Source: a virus
Direction: 5' to 3' (one strand)
Virus record (IMG/VR): IMGVR_UViG_3300023175_000184
Location: 1 to 25,235 of that record
DNA length: 25,235 nt
In this document: in pieces, positions 3,031 through 25,235 of the stretch
How positions within the stretch are numbered: the first letter of the stretch is position 1
How the letters are laid out: every line of letters begins with the position of its first letter
Notes under the pieces: generated by a model
Told to the model about the DNA's origin: nothing
What the model saw: only the letters and a program-made list of their open reading frames with translations
Databases searched by the model: none
Program-made: the position numbers and the translations under genes

Positions 3031-5380
3031 GAACGTTATCGAGATACTTAATTACGACAATACCTTGAGTTGCGTTAACTGGACTTCCATGATTCTGTCC
3101 ACTAGGTCTTCTTCCTCTTCCATATTGTCCTGGACCCATAGCACCTTGCGTGACAGATACACCGCAATCAGGACCATTACAGTTGCTAGATTCACCAGCG
3201 GAACCACCTCCACCAGAACCAAAGTATTCATTAGATCCACTGATTCTCACGTTAATTTGTAATCCAGCACCACCTGTTCCACCTGTTGCATTATATGGAC
3301 CAGTGCTGCAATCATTATCACCACCACCAGGATATGCCTTCCAGCATACACCACCACTTCGTGAACCACCTCCACCATTAGCAGAGGCACCACCACCTCC
3401 ACCATAAGCTTCAGGTCCATGAACCTGAATAGAGTTACCACCAGGACCCCTGGCAGGATATACAGTGTTACTTACTTCATTTCCAGACTCATTACCAGTA
3501 CCATCATAAACAATGATGTTACCACCCTGAGAACTAGAAGATGTTGCACCAGAGGCACTCAAACTAAAGGTAGTTCCATCAACGTGAGAGATAGAAGATG
3601 TACCATTATTAGAACCAACGCTAACATTATATCTTCCACCAGTTAGTGTAAGAAGTTGACGATATTCGACACGTCCACCTCCACCACCACGTCCACCATC
3701 AACACTCTGACTACCACCACCAACTACAAGTAGGTCAACACGTTGAGTCTTAGCGACTGACATTTCTGTCGATCCGACACTAGTAAACTCCCAAACTTGT
3801 TGAGTGCCAGCGAATCCGACTGTTGCGTTTGCCGATGTTGTGAATCCAAATGTAGGTTCTGGAAGAATACCTGTAACAATACCTGCTATGAATCCAGATA
3901 AACCATAGGCACCCGTGATTGCATAACCAGGTTGTCCACCACTACCAGGACCAAGACCTCCAGCTTGAGGTGCAAGTCCCTCATAAGAACCACTACCAAA
4001 TGCAGTAATTTGTGCAAAACTACCAGCGGCATAACTAACTGCTATTTGATATATTTCATAAGTCTCATATGGATCTACAGATACTGTTGGAACAAAAATA
4101 GTGCCATTGTAACCAAAACCAGTTCCTGAAGAGACTACACTACTATCAGATGTTTTTCTAATTTGAGTAACTTGGTATAGAGAACCAGGTGTACTACCAC
4201 CCCAAAAATAATTTACTGTAGCCCCAATTTCTGTATATCCAGTGATACCACTTTCAACAACACCTTGTCTAATATCATTCTCTCTTTGAGTTGTGAATGT
4301 GTAGGATATTGGTCCAGAAAGATAAGTGCCAGCGGTCGTTCCAATACCTGTTGCAGCTGCAAATTCACCCATCTCTCCTGCTTGACCGTAATCACCACCC
4401 GCTCCACCTGCTCCACCTGGAGTTCCTGGACCACCACCATAACTATCAGTCAAACCAGGTTCGCTTGGTTCACTTCCCTCCCTAGAACCTGATGGATAAT
4501 CTCCACCTGTTGCTTTACCACCAGCACCACCCAGTCCACGAATACCACCATCAGATGTTTTATAGTTGGGAGTTTGACACTCACAAAGGTCCTGAAAAGG
4601 AGCCCATGTATAACACCGAGCAAGGAAAGAACCCGAACCAAATCTACCACAGTTTGCATTGCCGCAACCTTTACCACATAAAAATTGATTAACACTATAT
4701 CCACTCAGATACTGAACTCCAGTACCATTTAATCCATCTTCTCCTGCTCCACCACCTCCACCACCTGCTTTAATCGCACCAGTTTCACTAACAGCAATTA
4801 GAGCAGCAATACCTAAATTATTGATAATGTCTAGAGCGGCACCACCATCTCTGCCAGGGTCTGCAGTTCTATCTGGAGATCCATCCAGACCTGCTCCACC
4901 ACCAGTTCCACCACACCCTAAAACCTGACCATCAACAAAGATTCTAAGATTATTATATCCACCAGAGATACTTAAAGCGGCAGTGCTAGTATCATCTGAT
5001 GAGATAGTACAATTTGTTGTAATAGCAACTGTCTTCCGAATATTGTTAGTTTGTTCTGATCCAAACGCTAAGTTTGCAAGGTCAACTTTTTGACCAGAAC
5101 CACTAATCTCTAGTTTTAATTCTCTTACAGCACCAATGAGATCCAAAGGTCCCATTGTTCCTGTTGATTTGATTCCAGCATTGTAAGTTGTTACACCAAT
5201 AATAGGATCATATGGGTCAGATCCTACACCGACAGTATAATCTAAGAAGCAAGATCCAAAAGAAACTGGTTGGTTTGGTTCAAAGAACCCCAGTGTCTTC
5301 ATATCACGAAAGGAGAATCCACCAGCGGTAGATACTCCTGTAAAAAGTTGATTGACGATAGGAGTGATATTAAGTGCCAT
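3026..5380 (-). CDS. Glycine-rich tail adhesin / fiber protein
   Basis: A 784-aa virion-type protein, very likely host-facing. Residues 1-150 form a non-repetitive, probably attachment, region. After that come several long Gly-rich blocks (GGTGGGAGLDG, GGGGGGAGEDG, GGPGTPGGAGGAGG, GGGGGRVEYRQ) typical of Gly-rich phage adhesins that fold as polyglycine-II helix sandwiches. The segment around VVGGGSQSVDGGRGGGGG, followed by LTGGRYNVSVGSNNG, matches the phage Gly_rich_2-type domain. There is a cluster of eight Cys in the CGKGCGNANCGRFG region, with further Cys pairs near the C-terminus (GGVCWKAYPG, SSNCNGPDCG). The gene starts two bases after the stop of the VGIGT fiber gene, so the two are cotranscribed. 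It could be the tip adhesin that sets host range. Homologues are expected to vary strongly. Confidence 0.8.
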   Translation of the reverse strand: MALNITPIVNQLFTGVSTAGGFSFRDMKTLGFFEPNQPVSFGSCFLDYTVGVGSDPYDPIIGVTTYNAGIKSTGTMGPLDLIGAVRELKLEISGSGQKVDLANLAFGSEQTNNIRKTVAITTNCTISSDDTSTAALSISGGYNNLRIFVDGQVLGCGGTGGGAGLDGSPDRTADPGRDGGAALDIINNLGIAALIAVSETGAIKAGGGGGGAGEDGLNGTGVQYLSGYSVNQFLCGKGCGNANCGRFGSGSFLARCYTWAPFQDLCECQTPNYKTSDGGIRGLGGAGGKATGGDYPSGSREGSEPSEPGLTDSYGGGPGTPGGAGGAGGDYGQAGEMGEFAAATGIGTTAGTYLSGPISYTFTTQRENDIRQGVVESGITGYTEIGATVNYFWGGSTPGSLYQVTQIRKTSDSSVVSSGTGFGYNGTIFVPTVSVDPYETYEIYQIAVSYAAGSFAQITAFGSGSYEGLAPQAGGLGPGSGGQPGYAITGAYGLSGFIAGIVTGILPEPTFGFTTSANATVGFAGTQQVWEFTSVGSTEMSVAKTQRVDLLVVGGGSQSVDGGRGGGGGRVEYRQLLTLTGGRYNVSVGSNNGTSSISHVDGTTFSLSASGATSSSSQGGNIIVYDGTGNESGNEVSNTVYPARGPGGNSIQVHGPEAYGGGGGASANGGGGSRSGGVCWKAYPGGGDNDCSTGPYNATGGTGGAGLQINVRISGSNEYFGSGGGGSAGESSNCNGPDCGVSVTQGAMGPGQYGRGRRPSGQNHGSPVNATQGIVVIKYLDNVP

Positions 5381-16481: not shown

Positions 16482-16979
16482 TCAGTCACCAAGACCAACC
16501 AGGTTTAAGAAAGTATCCAAAAGACCCATACCACCCTTGGTTTTAATATTAGTATCTTGAGCTTTTAATTGAACATCAAATCCTTGCACATTAACAGATC
16601 TGGTCATATCATTACCAAGTTGAATCTTCTGTGCCAATACACTGAAAGTACCAGGTGTTTCAATAAAAATATTCTTTCCTTTAAGTTGTAAGTTTCCTTT
16701 ATCAGCATTAATTGTGATGCTACCTTTGGAAGCATAGATTCTAATGTCAACACCATCGGGTTCATTCTTAGAACCACCAACAATCTCAGTTGTTCCTTCG
16801 TTAGTAATTCTCAGAAGACCATTGGCAGCTAAACTCTGTGTGAAAATACTACCATCTGGAGTCTCACCGATGATCTTAAACATCTCGGGTCCAGACTGAC
16901 CTTCTTGTGGATTGTTTACGTCAATCTTGAAAGACTTTGATCTAGCGTCAACGTCTCTTTTGCTATAATCTTTTGACAT
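16482..16979 (-). CDS. Beta-helical spike candidate (gp5 C-terminal-like)
   Basis: A 165-aa protein. After about 30 residues it becomes a run of short alternating beta strands with turns of about 8 residues (VDIRIYASKG, SITINADKGN, LQLKGKNIFI, ETPGTFSVLA, QKIQLGND), the pattern of the triple-stranded beta-helix at the tip of T4 gp5 and VgrG spikes. This would make it the membrane-puncturing needle beneath the OB-domain protein encoded upstream. A Gly-rich hydrophobic end (GGMGLLDTFLNLVGLGD) follows. Its ATG overlaps the TAA of the 499-aa gene (TAATG), so the two are translated together. The structural role is inferred from pattern and position; direct similarity to gp5 is not obvious. Confidence 0.65.
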   Translation of the reverse strand: MSKDYSKRDVDARSKSFKIDVNNPQEGQSGPEMFKIIGETPDGSIFTQSLAANGLLRITNEGTTEIVGGSKNEPDGVDIRIYASKGSITINADKGNLQLKGKNIFIETPGTFSVLAQKIQLGNDMTRSVNVQGFDVQLKAQDTNIKTKGGMGLLDTFLNLVGLGD

Positions 16980-18478
16980 TATTCGATACAGTCGATGACT
17001 TCTTGAAGTTGTTTCTCTACTACAGGCAGAGAATTGATAAGTGGTTTGATTCTTGCACCACTACCAGTCTTTGTATTTACATTAAGAGCAGGAAGTTCAT
17101 TAACAGGAGTGACTCTATTAATCCTTGCATCTATAATTATACCATCTTCGATGGTGAGATCAAAGCCATCTAAAGTATCATCATCACCAAATCCAGAACC
17201 ACCATTTTCAATGACGGCACCTACAATACCAAGTGGGATGTCTTCATCTACTGGATAATTTATACCACTAGAGATCATGGTAATAGATGTTACCTCACCC
17301 TTCTCATTAATATTTGCCTTAGCAAAGGCACCTCGTCCCAATCCACAACTATCACTGATAGTAACAAACGGTGCCGTCTTATATCCAGAACCTCCACTAA
17401 GAAGATCTACACCAACAACACTACCAACCTTACTAACTACGTCGCTTAGTCCCTCAGTGTTATCAACAATTCCACCAAGAATTGCTTTACCTGCTGCACC
17501 TACACCTCCACCACCAAAGATGGTTATCTTAGGTGCTCCACATGCTAAAGGATTGCCAGTGTAGCAACTACCATTAGCGTTTACAATGCCACTATCATTA
17601 AGAGTTGTTCCATCACCAAAGATATCCCATTGACCAAATTGTCTTTGGAAATCATTGGATAAGTTTGAAGCACCCTTCGCAATACTCAACTTAGCTAAGA
17701 TTTTACCAACATCGGGTGGTTCTTCCTCATCTTCTTCTCCTGTGCAGAATCCACCACCAACAAAGTATCCTTTAACAGTTGGGCAGTTCTTAGACTCATT
17801 GCATTGAAACAAACCACCAATGGCACTGATAGCATCAACGGCACCCAGAAGAAAATCAACAATCTTAAAAGCAGGAGAGATGATTTTATCAAGTGGTCCT
17901 AGAAGTGCCGTTACACCATCAGCAATTTGATCAATGATTGGATTAATAAATGCACCCGTAAATTGTTCTGCAGCACAAGAAGCGAAGTTTTGAATCTCAC
18001 CAACCATATTGGAGAGAAGATCAACGGCAGTATCAAACAAACCACTAATGATTTTATTCATCAGACAAACCATGCCTTTGATGAGTGCCTGAACTGCTGG
18101 TTTTAGAGCAACAATAGATGGCAGTGCCAATCCACCAGTGGATGCTAAAAGTGATGCAACTCCTTGTTGTATTAATTCCTTTAACTTCTCCGTCAGTCTA
18201 TTCATCAAAGATCCGACCAGCAGACCTCCTAACTCCTTCAGAATACCTGCGGCTGCTTGTACTTCATTTCCAATGTTTCCAGCAAAAGCAAGGACTTTCT
18301 TCGCATCTTTCAGAAAGTTCTTAACAGTATTGGTAATCTCACTTACAGGATCAGTTTCACAACCTGCAACTTTTACACAAGTTCCATTGGATTGATTATC
18401 GTCTCTACCAAGGCTGGGGTTTTTACCAGGATCATATTCACCCTCTGGGCATAGATATAGTAAAGATGCTGTTGACAT
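16979..18478 (-). CDS. 499-aa baseplate/virion structural protein
   Basis: A mixed protein. Residues about 40-215 are a series of hydrophobic or amphipathic helices (KVLAFAGNIGNEVQAAAGIL, then further segments) with several Cys. After an acidic linker (GEEDEEEPPDVG) the second half has beta modules of the 'GGSGY...P.V.i...G.G..A.A' type (LLSGGSGYKTAPFVTIS; AVIENGGSGFGDDD), seen repeatedly in marine phage virion proteins. It lies between the OB-domain protein and the spike candidate, so it is probably part of the hub or spike. Cotranslation with the spike (TAATG) supports that. A CATAAATA motif sits only 5 nt before its ATG, which would give an almost leaderless late transcript. No named T4 counterpart is recognised. 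Confidence 0.72.
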   Translation of the reverse strand: MSTASLLYLCPEGEYDPGKNPSLGRDDNQSNGTCVKVAGCETDPVSEITNTVKNFLKDAKKVLAFAGNIGNEVQAAAGILKELGGLLVGSLMNRLTEKLKELIQQGVASLLASTGGLALPSIVALKPAVQALIKGMVCLMNKIISGLFDTAVDLLSNMVGEIQNFASCAAEQFTGAFINPIIDQIADGVTALLGPLDKIISPAFKIVDFLLGAVDAISAIGGLFQCNESKNCPTVKGYFVGGGFCTGEEDEEEPPDVGKILAKLSIAKGASNLSNDFQRQFGQWDIFGDGTTLNDSGIVNANGSCYTGNPLACGAPKITIFGGGGVGAAGKAILGGIVDNTEGLSDVVSKVGSVVGVDLLSGGSGYKTAPFVTISDSCGLGRGAFAKANINEKGEVTSITMISSGINYPVDEDIPLGIVGAVIENGGSGFGDDDTLDGFDLTIEDGIIIDARINRVTPVNELPALNVNTKTGSGARIKPLINSLPVVEKQLQEVIDCIE

Positions 18479-18483
18479 AACGT

Positions 18484-18491
18484 TATTTATG
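18484..18491 (-). promoter_or_regulatory. Late promoter-like motif CATAAATA
   Basis: CATAAATA on the minus strand contains the TAA stop codon of the OB-domain gene and ends 5 nt before the ATG of the 499-aa gene. A T4-type start site would fall at or next to that ATG, so it is either a leaderless promoter or a chance match. Confidence 0.35.
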
Positions 18492-18984
18492 CGGAAGATC
18501 TAGCATTATTTTGTCTATACTGTTGCACAGCACTTTTTTCTCTCTGAGTTTCTGCTATTTGAGACGCTCCACCCTTTCCACCAAAGTTTCCCTTTGTGGG
18601 TTGTGTTGTCACACCACCCTGATCACCACCAGATGCTCTCGTAAGATCTTCTGTCTTAACATAGTCATTGTATTTAATGAGAGATGTTCTAGCTAAGACA
18701 CCAAGAATGACTCCAGTTTGATTTGCAGGAGAGTCAGTATGTAAACCAAATACCATGTCTCCATCACTGAGATTTACAGATCTCATTCTTTCACCATCTC
18801 CAGAACTTGCTGTCAAAGGAAGAACACAATCAAACATTCTCAATTTCTGAGGTTCTTTGATAAGCGAAGGATCATCAATACCAACCCTAAGGACACGGTA
18901 TCTTACACCATGTCCCTCTTGTTTGACGTTTTGATTTTCGTCAACAACTATCTGACCAAAGAAATATGATGGATACTTGTTCAT
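18487..18984 (-). CDS. gp5-type OB-fold baseplate hub protein, no lysozyme
   Basis: A 165-aa protein. Residues about 5-105 line up with the N-terminal OB domain of T4 gp5: YFFGQIVVDEN corresponds to FVGVVEDRMDP, then VRYRVLRVGI, then the VLPLT strand, then GDMVFGLHTDSPANQTGVIL matching the 'G..V.G......NG.vLG' end of the domain. The remaining 60 residues are Gly/Gln/Ser-rich and probably unstructured. In T4 the OB domain is fused to a lysozyme and a beta-helix; both are missing here. The start is the ATG at 18984, which shares a base with the TGA of the 71-aa gene (TGATG). It should sit on the gp27-like hub and start the spike. Confidence 0.75.
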   Translation of the reverse strand: MNKYPSYFFGQIVVDENQNVKQEGHGVRYRVLRVGIDDPSLIKEPQKLRMFDCVLPLTASSGDGERMRSVNLSDGDMVFGLHTDSPANQTGVILGVLARTSLIKYNDYVKTEDLTRASGGDQGGVTTQPTKGNFGGKGGASQIAETQREKSAVQQYRQNNARSSA

Positions 18985-19199
18985 CAATCCTCGTAGATTC
19001 TACACTCTAGAGCTTCTGGATTTTCATCACAATACATCTCAAAAGCACTGGGATCATGATGATCCTCTGGATGTGCCTCATGATATTTCTCCAGATGTTC
19101 TAATTCATCTGCAGTATGACGACGTTGTTGTGGTGAAAGTGTTGGATCTTGAAGGATTTCTTTATCCTTTTCGATATGATCTTCAATAGATTTTTCCAT
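18984..19199 (-). CDS. 71-aa conserved hub-locus protein
   Basis: A small, highly charged, probably all-helical protein: KDKEILQDPTLSPQQRRHTA, then DELEHLEKYHEAHPEDHHDP, ending CDENPEALECRIYED. It has seven His and two Cys near the C-terminus, so metal binding is conceivable. I recall similar short proteins in other cyanomyoviruses. The gene is locked between the gp27-like hub (TAATG) and the gp5-type protein (TGATG), which points to a role in hub assembly, perhaps as a chaperone or minor component. No function is established. Confidence 0.75.
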   Translation of the reverse strand: MEKSIEDHIEKDKEILQDPTLSPQQRRHTADELEHLEKYHEAHPEDHHDPSAFEMYCDENPEALECRIYED

Positions 19200-22033: not shown

Positions 22034-23680
22034 TCACAAGACTCCTAAAAGAATATAAGTGCTCTTAGCATATTGCAAGAAGGCATTTTCCGTGTCAAAG
22101 GGAGAAATTCCTATACCATCAACAGGAACTGCTGCGATATCATCATCAGATTCAGTGGCAACAGGATTAATATTGAAATTAAACTCAATGTCAGAGACGG
22201 TGTTTGCCAAATTATTAAATTGTTCGGTAACACCTGCTTTGAAATTGTCCATCATTGAGACGACGTTCTGCAATGGTGTCTCTACCATATCACCAACAAA
22301 ATTCAGTCCTTTTCTTATGACAAACGCAGTTTGAGCTTCTGTTAAAGATTCTGGGAATAACTGATCTGATGTAATCCCAAGCTTAGTTTTCAACATCTCC
22401 TGCTGCTCGGGATTCAACTGATTGAACATTGTAGAAACAATATTCCGAGCGTGCTTCATGTTATTCTGCTCTGCAGATGCTTGACTCTCTAGGTATTTGA
22501 TGTAAGATTCTCTTGTGTTGAATCTTTTACCACCCTCTCTTCTAGAAGTAAAGGTTGCTTGAGCTCTGACTCTTTCTATATCTTTTTGTTTTCCTTCAAA
22601 GGCATTCTTTGCTCTATAGTATTCCTTATAAGCAGCACTAATTCTATTTCCAGTTAGTTGATCCGTGATATCTTTTCTCTGTTTTTCGGTGAGACCAGCG
22701 AGTGCTTTCTGTTCTTTGATTGCCTCTCTATTAACCTGCTCCATCTCACCAGTTTCTACAATTTTCCCATCCTTATCTTTTCTATAGGTTTTAAACTCTT
22801 CATCAAATTTGGTGGCGGAACTTAACAATGTACTGATGTCAGTAGCACTATAAAGTTTATCTCCTATCTTGTAGAACTGATCATAATATTTTTCTCCCTT
22901 AGTAGCCGTTCTCGGGTTACCTTGTACCAACTCAAGACCAAATTTTCTGCCCGTCGCAGCTTGTTCGTTCAAAATCCTTCTAACTCTTTCTCTTGCTCTT
23001 TGACCAGGATCTAATCCATCCATTCCTCTCTCAAAGAGTTCCATAAGACCTACACCTGCACCAACAGCAAGCAAAGCCTTCCAAGTTATGGGATTAAGTA
23101 GAGCACCCAGAACAATTGGAATAGTTCCAATCAATGTTCCCAATGCGGTGAGTAATAATGGCAGACCAAATTGCAGAGCAGCAATGACACCACCAATGAT
23201 TGCCAATGTCTTAAGAATTTTTGGGACCCACTCTTTTAATTGTTTTTTCTTCTTTTCACCATCCTGATCAAACCACTTCATTACACCCTTCGAGAACCAT
23301 CCTATAAAGGTGATTGTAAAGAATTTAATGAATGGTTTTAGAAAACTAAAAAGTCCACCAGTAATCTTCTTGGCAGTATTTTTTAATCCTCTTATAATAT
23401 TTTTTCCTACCGTTTTAGTGGTCTCAATCGCATTTTCAGCACTAGCTTTTACTGCACTCTCTCTTTGTATTCTCTTTTCTCTCTGTTCTGTTTGCTGTTT
23501 CTTGATAGTGAGAGCGTTCTGCTGTTGCAGTAACTTATTAATTGATACTAAGTTTTTATTGATTGCATCTACCGTCTTCAAAAGAGTCGTAGTGTCTTTT
23601 GGAGAAAAACGGCGCATTCCTTTAAACGATGCTGCTCCACCAGATGTGCCTCGTCTAAAAGAACTTGCCGTAATTGCCAT
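22034..23680 (-). CDS. Probable tape measure protein (gp29-like in role)
   Basis: A 548-aa protein, close to T4 gp29 (590). The N-terminal 40 residues are Ser/Gly-rich; 32-92 are a coiled coil (Lys/Gln/Glu-rich); 108-137 carry the shared GGLFSFLK...FFTITFIGW motif; 154-215 are strongly hydrophobic (LAIIGGVIAALQFGLPLLLT, LLNPITWKALLAVGAGVGLM). A long charged helical region follows, then an acidic C-terminus. Long helices with a central membrane-like segment are the hallmark of tape measure proteins. It sits directly after gp26 and the 60-aa protein, the usual place for a tape measure behind its chaperones. Its ATG overlaps the stop of the 60-aa gene (TAATG). Sequence similarity to gp29 itself is not evident. 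Confidence 0.65.
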   Translation of the reverse strand: MAITASSFRRGTSGGAASFKGMRRFSPKDTTTLLKTVDAINKNLVSINKLLQQQNALTIKKQQTEQREKRIQRESAVKASAENAIETTKTVGKNIIRGLKNTAKKITGGLFSFLKPFIKFFTITFIGWFSKGVMKWFDQDGEKKKKQLKEWVPKILKTLAIIGGVIAALQFGLPLLLTALGTLIGTIPIVLGALLNPITWKALLAVGAGVGLMELFERGMDGLDPGQRARERVRRILNEQAATGRKFGLELVQGNPRTATKGEKYYDQFYKIGDKLYSATDISTLLSSATKFDEEFKTYRKDKDGKIVETGEMEQVNREAIKEQKALAGLTEKQRKDITDQLTGNRISAAYKEYYRAKNAFEGKQKDIERVRAQATFTSRREGGKRFNTRESYIKYLESQASAEQNNMKHARNIVSTMFNQLNPEQQEMLKTKLGITSDQLFPESLTEAQTAFVIRKGLNFVGDMVETPLQNVVSMMDNFKAGVTEQFNNLANTVSDIEFNFNINPVATESDDDIAAVPVDGIGISPFDTENAFLQYAKSTYILLGVL

Positions 23681-23862
23681 TATGCTGCGCCGTTAGCCTG
23701 TTGTTGTTTTAACTTTTCATCTTCAAGATATTGTTGAAGCAACGTAATGTAAATCTCCCTCTCCCAAGGGATCATATCTTCAAGCTCCGTCAAAGAGTAT
23801 TTATGGTGCTGTATCAAGGCAAAGTTGATTTTATAGTATGACTCAAGATTTTCATGAGCCAT
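23680..23862 (-). CDS. 60-aa tail assembly chaperone-like protein, possibly made mainly by frameshift
   Basis: The chain (MAHENLESYYKINFALIQHH, then KYSLTELEDMIPWEREIYIT, then LLQQYLEDEKLKQQQANGAA) has the 'YY...fal...H.ys..ELe.MpWwEre.Y' signature found in short proteins encoded just before phage tape measure genes; T4 gp51 plays an analogous hub-catalyst role, but similarity is unproven. The ATG has no usable Shine-Dalgarno (only TAGGT one base away) and is inside a predicted stem. The frame is -1 relative to gp26, and a slippery site joins the two, so part or all of the product may be the C-terminal domain of a gp26 fusion. It is coupled to the tape-measure-type gene by TAATG. Confidence 0.75.
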   Translation of the reverse strand: MAHENLESYYKINFALIQHHKYSLTELEDMIPWEREIYITLLQQYLEDEKLKQQQANGAA

Positions 23863-23877
23863 ACCTAGCTGAAAAAA
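23839..23877 (-). promoter_or_regulatory. Programmed -1 frameshift signal joining gp26 to 60-aa ORF
   Basis: On the minus strand the last sense codons of gp26 read AGT TTT TTC AGC TAG, so T-TTT-TTC (23877-23871) is an X-XXY-YYZ heptamer in the correct phase. Nine bases later a 7-bp stem (23861-23855 with 23845-23839, one G-U, 9-nt loop) follows. Slipping by -1 continues as Gln-Leu-Gly-Met-Ala-His into the 60-aa frame with no stop between. In the -1 frame a TGA at 23892-23890 lies just upstream of the heptamer, so the shift window is tightly bounded. Confidence 0.75.
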
Positions 23878-24581
23878 CTTGCTAACCCTTCAAGAACAAC
23901 ATCACTTTCAACACCTGTATTTGGATTTCTAACCTTCACAGTATGAGAAAGTTTTGGCATTGTAGTAAAAAACTTTTCAATAGACTGGAATTGAGTAGAT
24001 CCTAAGTTTTCAATAAATTCTACCAACTCTTTGTGTGTATGGTCAGTGCCAGCCCAAGACTCTTCTTCGGTATAAATTTGATCAATGCAATTAGCGATCA
24101 TGTCAAAAGACTGTTCGATTTCCGCATCACCCTCGACAAAATTACTCTTGACAAATTCATTCAAAGATGGATATCTCATCTTCATGAAATATTGGTCATC
24201 TAATTGAACAGTGGTACTATGTTCTGGATCTTTTTGAACCTGAATATCACTTAGAGCAATTGTCACGGGAACCTGAGTGTCATTATCATCAGGACATGTC
24301 AAGAGAACATCCACAGATTCACCAACAGACTTACCACGAATATTGAGAAACAGATACTCAATATCAAATGTAGATAGTTTTTCTACTTTAATACCTCTTG
24401 TCAAGATACAGTTTGAAATTACCTGTTTAACTGCTGTGGCAATTTCTTTTAAATTTTCACTCTCCATCGCAATGATAAGAAGTTTCTCTTCCTTGACCAA
24501 GAAAGGTCTATATTTTATCTTCCTATCAGATGAGGGTAAAGTCAACTCATATGTAGGAGCATTAATCTTTGGCAGTGTCAT
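23865..24581 (-). CDS. 26: T4 gp26-like baseplate hub / tail assembly protein
   Basis: A 238-aa protein of the T4_baseplate (gp26) type, about the T4 length. The N-terminus LPKINAPTYELTLPSSDRKI, followed by KYRPFLVKEEKLLIIAME, is the characteristic opening of this family. FLNIRGKSVGESVDVLLTCPDDN is a typical central block, and a helical half follows (MIANCIDQIYTEEE..., FIENLGSTQFQSIEKFF). In T4 gp26 is needed to assemble the baseplate hub. In related phages the equivalent gene before the tape measure acts as a tail assembly chaperone, which fits this position. Transcription starts from a late promoter motif ending 25 nt upstream of the ATG at 24581. Its 3' end carries a -1 frameshift signal that would extend it into the 60-aa ORF to give a 300-aa form. 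Confidence 0.85.
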   Translation of the reverse strand: MTLPKINAPTYELTLPSSDRKIKYRPFLVKEEKLLIIAMESENLKEIATAVKQVISNCILTRGIKVEKLSTFDIEYLFLNIRGKSVGESVDVLLTCPDDNDTQVPVTIALSDIQVQKDPEHSTTVQLDDQYFMKMRYPSLNEFVKSNFVEGDAEIEQSFDMIANCIDQIYTEEESWAGTDHTHKELVEFIENLGSTQFQSIEKFFTTMPKLSHTVKVRNPNTGVESDVVLEGLASFFS

Positions 24582-24606: not shown

Positions 24607-24614
24607 TATTTATT
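24607..24614 (-). promoter_or_regulatory. T4-type late promoter motif AATAAATA
   Basis: AATAAATA on the minus strand ends 25 nt before the gp26 ATG and contains the TAA stop codon of the upstream tube-fold gene. An A-rich stretch follows. Confidence 0.7.
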
Positions 24615-25235
24615 CATCTTTTTTGAAGGTAATGAACTCACCTCTTTGATTGAAAGCTTGTCTCAATGACTTGGAATAACTATCCATTGCACCGAAGATA
24701 TATCGATCATACTCAAATGTAACAGTCACTTCTAATACTCTAGACGCATCATAAGAGACCTGAGTAGATGCAACGTTCTTTGGATATGCGCCTAAGAAAT
24801 TATATTCAATACCATTCTTGTGATCTCTGTCATATTTGATCAGTCTCAGTCTATCACACTTATAGGCATCTGGATACTTAACTCTATAATAGTAATTCTT
24901 TTGATCAAAATCAACACCATCGGTAGTATTTGATCCACTCAAAATAAACTCTTGCCAAAGTTCAAAAAACTTCTGAACTCTGTATTCATAGTCAACATAA
25001 AAACGCATTGTTACAGGTTGAAACTGTCTCCTGTAAGCAAAGTTTTCGGTTACACCTGGAAATTGATCTCTGGCAGGTGCAGAAGCAATTTGTGTGCCAG
25101 GGATTTGTGCCTGACGACAGTATTCACCTAAGTCCCTTTTAATAAAGTCTGTTGTTACGCCACGTTGTCTCAAGTAAGTAGACAACTGACCAAGTGCCTC
25201 AATTCCTTCAAAACGAACTTTGTAGTGAGAGGTCT
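24610..25235 (-). CDS. Tail-tube-fold protein (gp48/gp54 or gp19 type), 5' end missing
   Basis: The frame is open to the right edge, so the N-terminus lies outside the window: upstream of a TTG at 25185 it continues as TSHYKVRFEGIEALGQ without a stop. At least 208 residues are present. The order of elements resembles the tail tube fold: YCRQAQIPGTQIAS, an acidic/Gly loop (ARDQFPGVTENF), then FQPVTMRFYVDYEYRVQKFF with a following FELWQEFI helix ('..v..tF.vd...r...f..W'), and a paired beta end (EYNFLGAYPKNVASTQVSYD, RVLEVTVTFEYDRYIFG). The same fold occurs in T4 gp19 (tube) and in the tube-initiating baseplate proteins gp48 and gp54. Placement before gp26 and the hub genes favours a baseplate tube protein. 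The exact identity is not resolved. Confidence 0.72.
   Translation of the reverse strand, partial: TSHYKVRFEGIEALGQLSTYLRQRGVTTDFIKRDLGEYCRQAQIPGTQIASAPARDQFPGVTENFAYRRQFQPVTMRFYVDYEYRVQKFFELWQEFILSGSNTTDGVDFDQKNYYYRVKYPDAYKCDRLRLIKYDRDHKNGIEYNFLGAYPKNVASTQVSYDASRVLEVTVTFEYDRYIFGAMDSYSKSLRQAFNQRGEFITFKKDE

Follow-up and report, generated by a model that had tools for sequence, protein, structure and literature searches.

The end of gp26 and the frame that adjoins it

The locus described here raised the question of how a 60-aa frame overlapping the end of a gp26 homologue is expressed, whether as a protein of its own or as an extension of gp26. The window (the whole stretch of 25,235 nucleotides that was analysed, whose record is a 25-kb virus fragment) carries both frames on its minus strand, with the following elements at their junction:

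23865..24581, minus strand: gp26 homologue, predicted short tail assembly chaperone (TAC-N), 238 aa (Pfam T4_baseplate, E 1.7e-75; phrog_150, E 3.9e-83)
23680..23871, minus strand: −1 frame extension, predicted C-terminal domain of the long chaperone (phrog_634, E 1.3e-27; three-helix model; profile match to the T4 gp51 C-terminus)
23871..23877, minus strand: slippery heptamer T TTT TTC, in phase (codon reading; kept in relatives)
23865..23867, minus strand: gp26 stop codon TAG, passed by a −1 shift, its last G being the first base of the downstream stem

The 3′ codons of gp26 were read on the minus strand as GCA AGT TTT TTC AGC TAG, and the heptamer T TTT TTC thus falls in the phase of gp26, 10 nt ahead of its stop, in agreement with a sequence-only reading that preceded this analysis. 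The same reading had described a short, bounded overlap of the two frames, and the −1 frame was indeed found to be open at the gp26 end only from 22 nt upstream of the stop, from where it runs on to 23680. When the −1 frame was translated across the junction (...ASFF-QLG-MAHENL...), the conceptual product was 300 aa long, as compared to 238 aa without a shift. In several relatives the extension is annotated as gp51 or as baseplate hub assembly catalyst; three named phages (S-CAM1, ACG-2014d and S-CAM8) have it without an annotated gene, and in Melnitz-2, HTVC008M and Syn19 the annotated start is an ATG deeper inside the extension. From the comparisons described below, we consider it highly probable (about 0.93) that a programmed −1 frameshift near the end of gp26 makes a short and a long tail assembly chaperone.

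The genes on both sides of the two frames were assigned as follows:

24610..25185, minus strand: tail tube protein gene, 191 aa, directly upstream of gp26 (Pfam Phage_TTP_2, E 1.9e-10; phrog_45 tail tube, E 4.7e-32)
22034..23680, minus strand: candidate tape measure protein, 548 aa, directly downstream of the extension (position, size and hydropathy)

Hydrophobic 19-aa windows of the 548-aa ORF start at residues 151-180, and no profile link was obtained between this tape measure candidate and T4 gp29. In HTVC008M the next-but-one gene past the extension is annotated as putative tail tape measure. Elsewhere among the tail genes of the window, a 71-aa gene at 18984-19199 (minus strand) carries a CP12 domain (Pfam CP12, E 3.3e-14), CP12 being a Calvin-cycle regulator of a kind known in cyanophages. 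The adjacent ORFs 18487-18987 and 16979-18478 (minus strand) match positions 23-121 and 201-658 of the 932 positions of phrog_1922 (baseplate hub subunit and tail lysozyme), as would be expected had one gp5-like gene been split in two.

A slippery heptamer is kept at the end of gp26

In-phase heptamers of the form X XXY YYZ were counted over the 21 ORFs of the window taken as genes (23,571 bases), and 11 were obtained, two of them TTTTTTC. The gp26 heptamer starts 13 nt from the end of its gene, the next nearest of the 11 being 106 nt away from its own, and the fold that follows it was the strongest of all (z −5.7; next −2.3). The frameshift signal of gp26 is far above chance.

For comparison, a set of 278 sequences (277 loci and the window) was assembled, from which T4 (L081) and a Krischvirus (L091) were dropped for having no gp26 match, together with five sequences without a closed stop. 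Removal of duplicates by 240-nt context reduced the remaining 271 to 208 distinct gp26 ends, and 125 representatives were chosen greedily below about 85% identity, 123 of them with enough downstream sequence. Protein similarity served to find the loci, which are close-to-moderate relatives, and named phages were hand-picked from hit lists, so that both samples are non-random.

In the window and its best 80 IMG/VR relatives, TTTTTTC was present at the same place with an open −1 extension without exception (81/81; in L016 and L017 the extension is open only as far as the contig end). The sequence-only reading had suggested that the heptamer and the −1 register be compared across gp26 loci, and the outcome was in its favour: the heptamer was found in phase in 205 of the 208 distinct gp26 ends (TTTTTTC in 191, TTTTTTT in 14), and the extension domain lay in the −1 frame in 201/208, in the +1 frame in one (S-SCSM1, L082), and was not found in six. 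These six were L016 and L017 (contig end), L144 (fused), and L090, L276 and L277 (Stenotrophomonas-phage type); in L090 and L276 the −1 frame is open for 55 codons that were not recognised by the extension profile. No heptamer was called in three of the 208, namely L144, L175 (in which gp26 stops prematurely) and L277 (with five T), and these were left out of the codon counts; L276, the near-identical sister of L277, has six T. In L144, near 3200-3230, gp26 and the extension are read in one frame (SFWLGMAHVDL), which may be a genuine fusion or else an error of assembly.

The place of the heptamer was nearly constant: of 123 representatives, 119 have it 10 or 7 nt ahead of the stop, and the remaining four have it at −13, −16 or −31. 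The first Phe codon at the site was TTT in every one of the 205 sequences counted, as compared to 1514 of 2188 Phe codons farther upstream in the same genes, and amino acids alone therefore do not account for TTT at the site.

When named phages were scanned by script, TTTTTTC or TTTTTTT was obtained in phase in 18/20, the hosts in this set including Synechococcus, Prochlorococcus, Pelagibacter, Methylophilales, Sinorhizobium, Stenotrophomonas, Pseudomonas, Aeromonas and Vibrio. Reading by eye gave TTTTTTC for Desulfovibrio phage 7757 and TTTTTTA for Pseudoalteromonas XG4. Two remoter gp26-like genes, those of Vibrio VAP7 (L285) and D506 (L286), had the −1 extension and no in-phase X XXY YYZ heptamer; VAP7 carries GTTTTTC near 2225-2245, resembling the GTTTTT motif reported for Vandenendeviridae, and the D506 site lies near 2075-2095. 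S-SCSM1 (1475-1510) keeps the heptamer with its extension in the +1/−2 frame, a case that counts against the simple model since a single −1 slip cannot reach that frame; an indel, a sequencing error or a different recoding event is possible there.

A Shine-Dalgarno-like sequence precedes the heptamer

Upstream of the heptamer, a further element was recognised in the window:

23886..23891, minus strand: Shine-Dalgarno-like GAAGGG, possible upstream stimulator, with a distance of 8 nt between its last G and the heptamer; a weaker version of the GAGGG of the relatives

Among the 125 representatives, GAGG starts at −14 in 93. GGAGG occurred in 45/125 as compared to a mean of 10.1 and a maximum of 18 in 200 within-gene synonymous codon permutations, and GAGGG or GGAGG in 93/125 against 41.2 permuted (maximum 53). 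Likewise, the Glu of a Glu-Gly pair ahead of the site was encoded by GAG in 92 of 105 representatives and in 911 of 2846 cases upstream. The enrichment of GAGG goes beyond codon usage. In a 2016 review (PMC5009743), Shine-Dalgarno sequences that stimulate −1 shifts are described as acting at 9-14 nt, with dnaX and its 11-bp stem as the example; the GAAGGG of the window is weaker than the form of the relatives and, at 8 nt, lies just under this range.

The downstream stem covaries in part of the family

Downstream of the heptamer, the best fold was the following:

23835..23865, minus strand: 11-bp stem-loop with a 5-nt spacer to the heptamer and arms at 23855-23865 and 23835-23845 (−15.6 kcal/mol, z −5.5; covariation)

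The sequence-only reading had drawn a 7-bp stem after a 9-nt spacer with an ATG inside it; the position of the ATG within the stem was confirmed, and the length and spacer had to be replaced by the 11 bp and 5 nt given here. An alignment of 70 sequences was prepared from the window and those 69 of 123 representatives whose 3′ arm contains CAT or CTT, a selection that favours the stem, and in it the 11 pairs were formed in 86.2% of cells as compared to 80.2% after shuffling (0/500). In the same 70 sequences, with shuffles that keep relatedness, the covariation score was 0.208 against 0.112 shuffled (0/500) and at most 0.099 with the partner slid, and 41 cells were changed on both sides against 14.4 shuffled (0/500). 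There was no excess of pairs with any double change (3 vs 3.0 shuffled, 352/500), and the number of further pair types, a weaker measure, did not stand out (14 vs 10.9 shuffled, 13/500). Since the count of double-change pairs was not raised, the signal of the stem comes mainly from pairs 21-35 (UA, GC, AU), 20-36 (CG, UA) and 19-37; pair 21-35 was UA in 34 of the 70 sequences, GC in 14, AU in 9, GU in 6, UG in 1 and unpaired in 6. The synonymous third base of an alanine codon in the −1 frame was also seen to track the opposite arm, GCT occurring with GAG, GCG with GCG and GCA with GTG.

A comparison of the stem across relatives, also proposed with the sequence-only reading, had a divided outcome: the stem covaries in the 70 selected sequences (mean fold z of the stem group, −3.30), but the other 54 of 123 representatives fold weakly (mean z −1.04; four control windows, −0.71 to 0.08). 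Because these 54 fold only slightly better than shuffled sequences, other lineages appear to have other stems or none. RNAalifold gave no structure on the 70-row alignment nor on large alignments; a 7-bp stem came out for a subset of 58 sequences that had been picked because their 3′ arm contains TCAT. The single Rfam match, of the hairpin to mir-1302, was far under the gathering score.

gp26 and its extension resemble the two parts of T4 gp51

An AlphaFold model of gp26 was obtained with a pLDDT of 87.8, and its residues 1-86 matched the HK97 tail assembly chaperone (2ob9) best, with a VIA-align Z of 8.1 over 84 residues (rmsd 4.1), a value at the edge of what is meaningful, since by the notes of the program a Z of 7 to 8 can reflect a common arrangement. 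The next matches were 3fgx (7.9) and 3klu (7.0), both of which we take to be TAC-like structures, followed by 5ir0 (5.2) and a remainder at or below 4.1. Foldseek returned nothing significant for the same model (best E 0.51, 2ob9 at E 2.3), and the gp26 profile had no meaningful match among PDB sequences. The model of the extension consists of three helices, for which no convincing match was found among PDB folds; the extension had no hit at Pfam cut-offs either, and a search of NCBIfam gave nothing useful.

Profile comparisons were more informative. The gp26 profile matched T4 gp26 (E 1.3e-19) and, at hhalign E 3e-9, the N-terminal region of T4 gp51, whose C-terminus was matched by the extension profile (E 6.7e-6); 25 of 27 extension sequences also matched phrog_150, the profile of gp26, at its C-terminal end. 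Judged by these profiles, T4 gp51 has the appearance of a gp26-like chaperone to which the 60-aa tail is already attached in the same frame. Separate, divergent genes on opposite strands encode gp26 and gp51 in T4, Krischvirus Aragogtheria and Aeromonas Aes012; the frame beside gp26 in the window is unlike T4 gp51 in being the extension only. One gp26 place was found in the record, and since this is a 25-kb fragment, a gp51-like gene may lie outside it. The simplest account is that T4 gp51 would be the long chaperone as one chain and T4 gp26 the short one, in an evolutionary direction that we infer.

Three of these observations count in favour of a frameshifted chaperone: the model of gp26 has the HK97 chaperone as its best structural match, at a borderline Z, gp26 comes after the tail tube gene, and T4 gp51 resembles gp26 N-terminally and the extension C-terminally within one frame.

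Other ways of expressing the extension

The alternative that survives best, though very unlikely, is translational coupling, in which ribosomes would terminate at the stop of gp26 and reinitiate at a nearby ATG, giving a separate 60-aa protein, with Phe-Phe merely coding. An ATG is indeed available in the window, 2 nt past the gp26 stop, and among 205 distinct relatives an ATG was found within the first ten −1 codons in 129, with only GTG or TTG in 18 more and two too short to be read; in nt-1 the annotated ATG overlaps the gp26 stop, and several database records have two genes annotated. Yet 56 of the 205 had none of these codons there, and among the 123 representatives, where ATG was counted in 83 and only GTG/TTG in 7, the remaining 33 (S-SCSM1 included) lacked all three near the beginning of the −1 frame, for which reason separate initiation is disfavoured. 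Where a start is absent, its position is usually taken by a hydrophobic residue, as in ALSH for GMAH. The 60-aa ORF was said in the sequence-only reading to lack a ribosome site of its own, and by eye we likewise saw none well placed before the ATG. In the relatives, about 24 nt separate the end of the Shine-Dalgarno-like sequence from the ATG position, which is too far for ordinary initiation, yet the sequence fits the range of −1 stimulation. Coupling also sits poorly with a heptamer fixed at codon level and with T4 gp51, which holds both parts in a single chain, and a peptide spanning ASFFQLGMAHENL would be incompatible with it.

Transcriptional slippage is less probable still. RNA polymerase would add or drop a U in the T6 run and so give edited mRNAs, and the homopolymer of six or seven T, as well as the difference of one T between the near-identical contigs L276 and L277, would suit such a mechanism. 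T6 is a short run for transcriptional slippage, however, and slippage would need neither codon phase, stem nor Shine-Dalgarno-like element, yet all of these are conserved; the seventh base of the heptamer, moreover, was C in 191/205.

Least probable of all is a broken gene or sequencing artefact, a formerly single gene split by an indel, for which the L144 contig with both parts in one frame and the one-chain form of T4 gp51 could be cited, and which is refuted as a general explanation by the recurrence of the same phase and heptamer in 205/208 distinct sequences and 18/20 script-read named phages.

None of these three alternatives was retained as the main explanation.

Proposed mechanism and comparison with known systems

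The programmed −1 frameshift preferred here takes as its basis the sequence elements, their conservation and a fold likeness that were observed above. Most ribosomes would stop at UAG and release the short chaperone of 238 aa. A fraction of them would move back by one base at U UUU UUC and continue through the stop, so that 63 residues, made up of a three-residue linker and the 60-aa frame, would be appended to give the long chaperone of 300 aa. Slipping is probably made more frequent by the upstream Shine-Dalgarno-like sequence and the 11-bp stem, as it is in dnaX. With lambda gpG/gpGT as the model, the part shared by both products would be the one that binds the tape measure protein, and tail tube subunits would be recruited by the extension.

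The heptamer of the window, T TTT TTC, differs from that of lambda G/GT, which is GGGAAAG, and the stem and Shine-Dalgarno-like element of the window resemble dnaX rather than lambda. As described in the 2016 review (PMC5009743), lambda gpG/gpGT is like the window in that a −1 slip near the end of the chaperone gene gives a minor long form, and in that the chaperone gene follows the tail tube gene and precedes the tape measure gene (presumed as such here). The same source describes for E. coli dnaX an upstream Shine-Dalgarno sequence, a slippery heptamer and a downstream 11-bp stem, as in the window family; dnaX differs in its heptamer, A AAA AAG, and in that its shift yields a shorter product. 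For the chaperones of Vandenendeviridae and Andersonviridae, PMC12846349 describes a conserved poly-T near the TAC-N end and a −1 extension that lies before the tape measure gene and is annotated separately, much as in the window; these belong to other myovirus families and have the motif GTTTTT. T4 is different again, having gp26 and gp51 as two genes with both parts in gp51, where the single gene of the window would give both products.

A −1 frameshift that joins gp26 to the 60-aa frame, as put forward in the sequence-only reading, is strongly supported by the comparisons made here, but not the accompanying claim of novelty, that none had been described for the gp26 locus of T4-type phages. 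The 2022 study by Vladimirov, Gautam and Davidson names in its title a mechanism other than frameshifting, and its T4-like chaperones are presumably the gp26 and gp51 families, in line with the profile match obtained here. As summarised in the PRFect paper (PMC10885494), that study (Virology 566:9-15) deals with some T4-like phages that have, without frameshifting, a short gene and a fused long gene. In PMC12846349, poly-T sequences are called known −1 signals in the TAC-N genes of T4-like phages, with Vladimirov et al. (2022) cited, and in the 2016 review (PMC5009743) the G-T frameshift is given as widely conserved with T4 listed as an exception. Among the matches listed in the open-licence literature, no title on a cyanophage gp26 frameshift was found. 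Frameshifting of the −1 type in phage tail chaperones is thus already known as a general trick, to which the window adds a probable instance; the covarying stem and the Shine-Dalgarno-like element come from the present analysis.

Meaning for T4-like phages

It is possible, though we regard it as rather doubtful, that marine T4-like phages set the ratio of their chaperones by a full dnaX-like cassette, made up of the Shine-Dalgarno-like element, U UUU UUC and the covarying 11-bp stem, with a high slip rate of perhaps tens of percent as compared to the 30:1 of lambda, and that the T4 lineage replaced this cassette by a duplication of gp26 with the long form fixed as gp51. The covarying stem and the upstream element render the chaperone ratio testable by mutation. 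The gene pair that is annotated in many marine phage records as baseplate hub subunit and hub assembly catalyst is better read as one frameshifted tail assembly chaperone, a reading that also offers a simple account of T4 gp26 and gp51. If the T4 lineage did replace such a cassette by duplication, the T4 hub assembly genes 26 and 51 would be two outcomes of an ancestral frameshift, made permanent.
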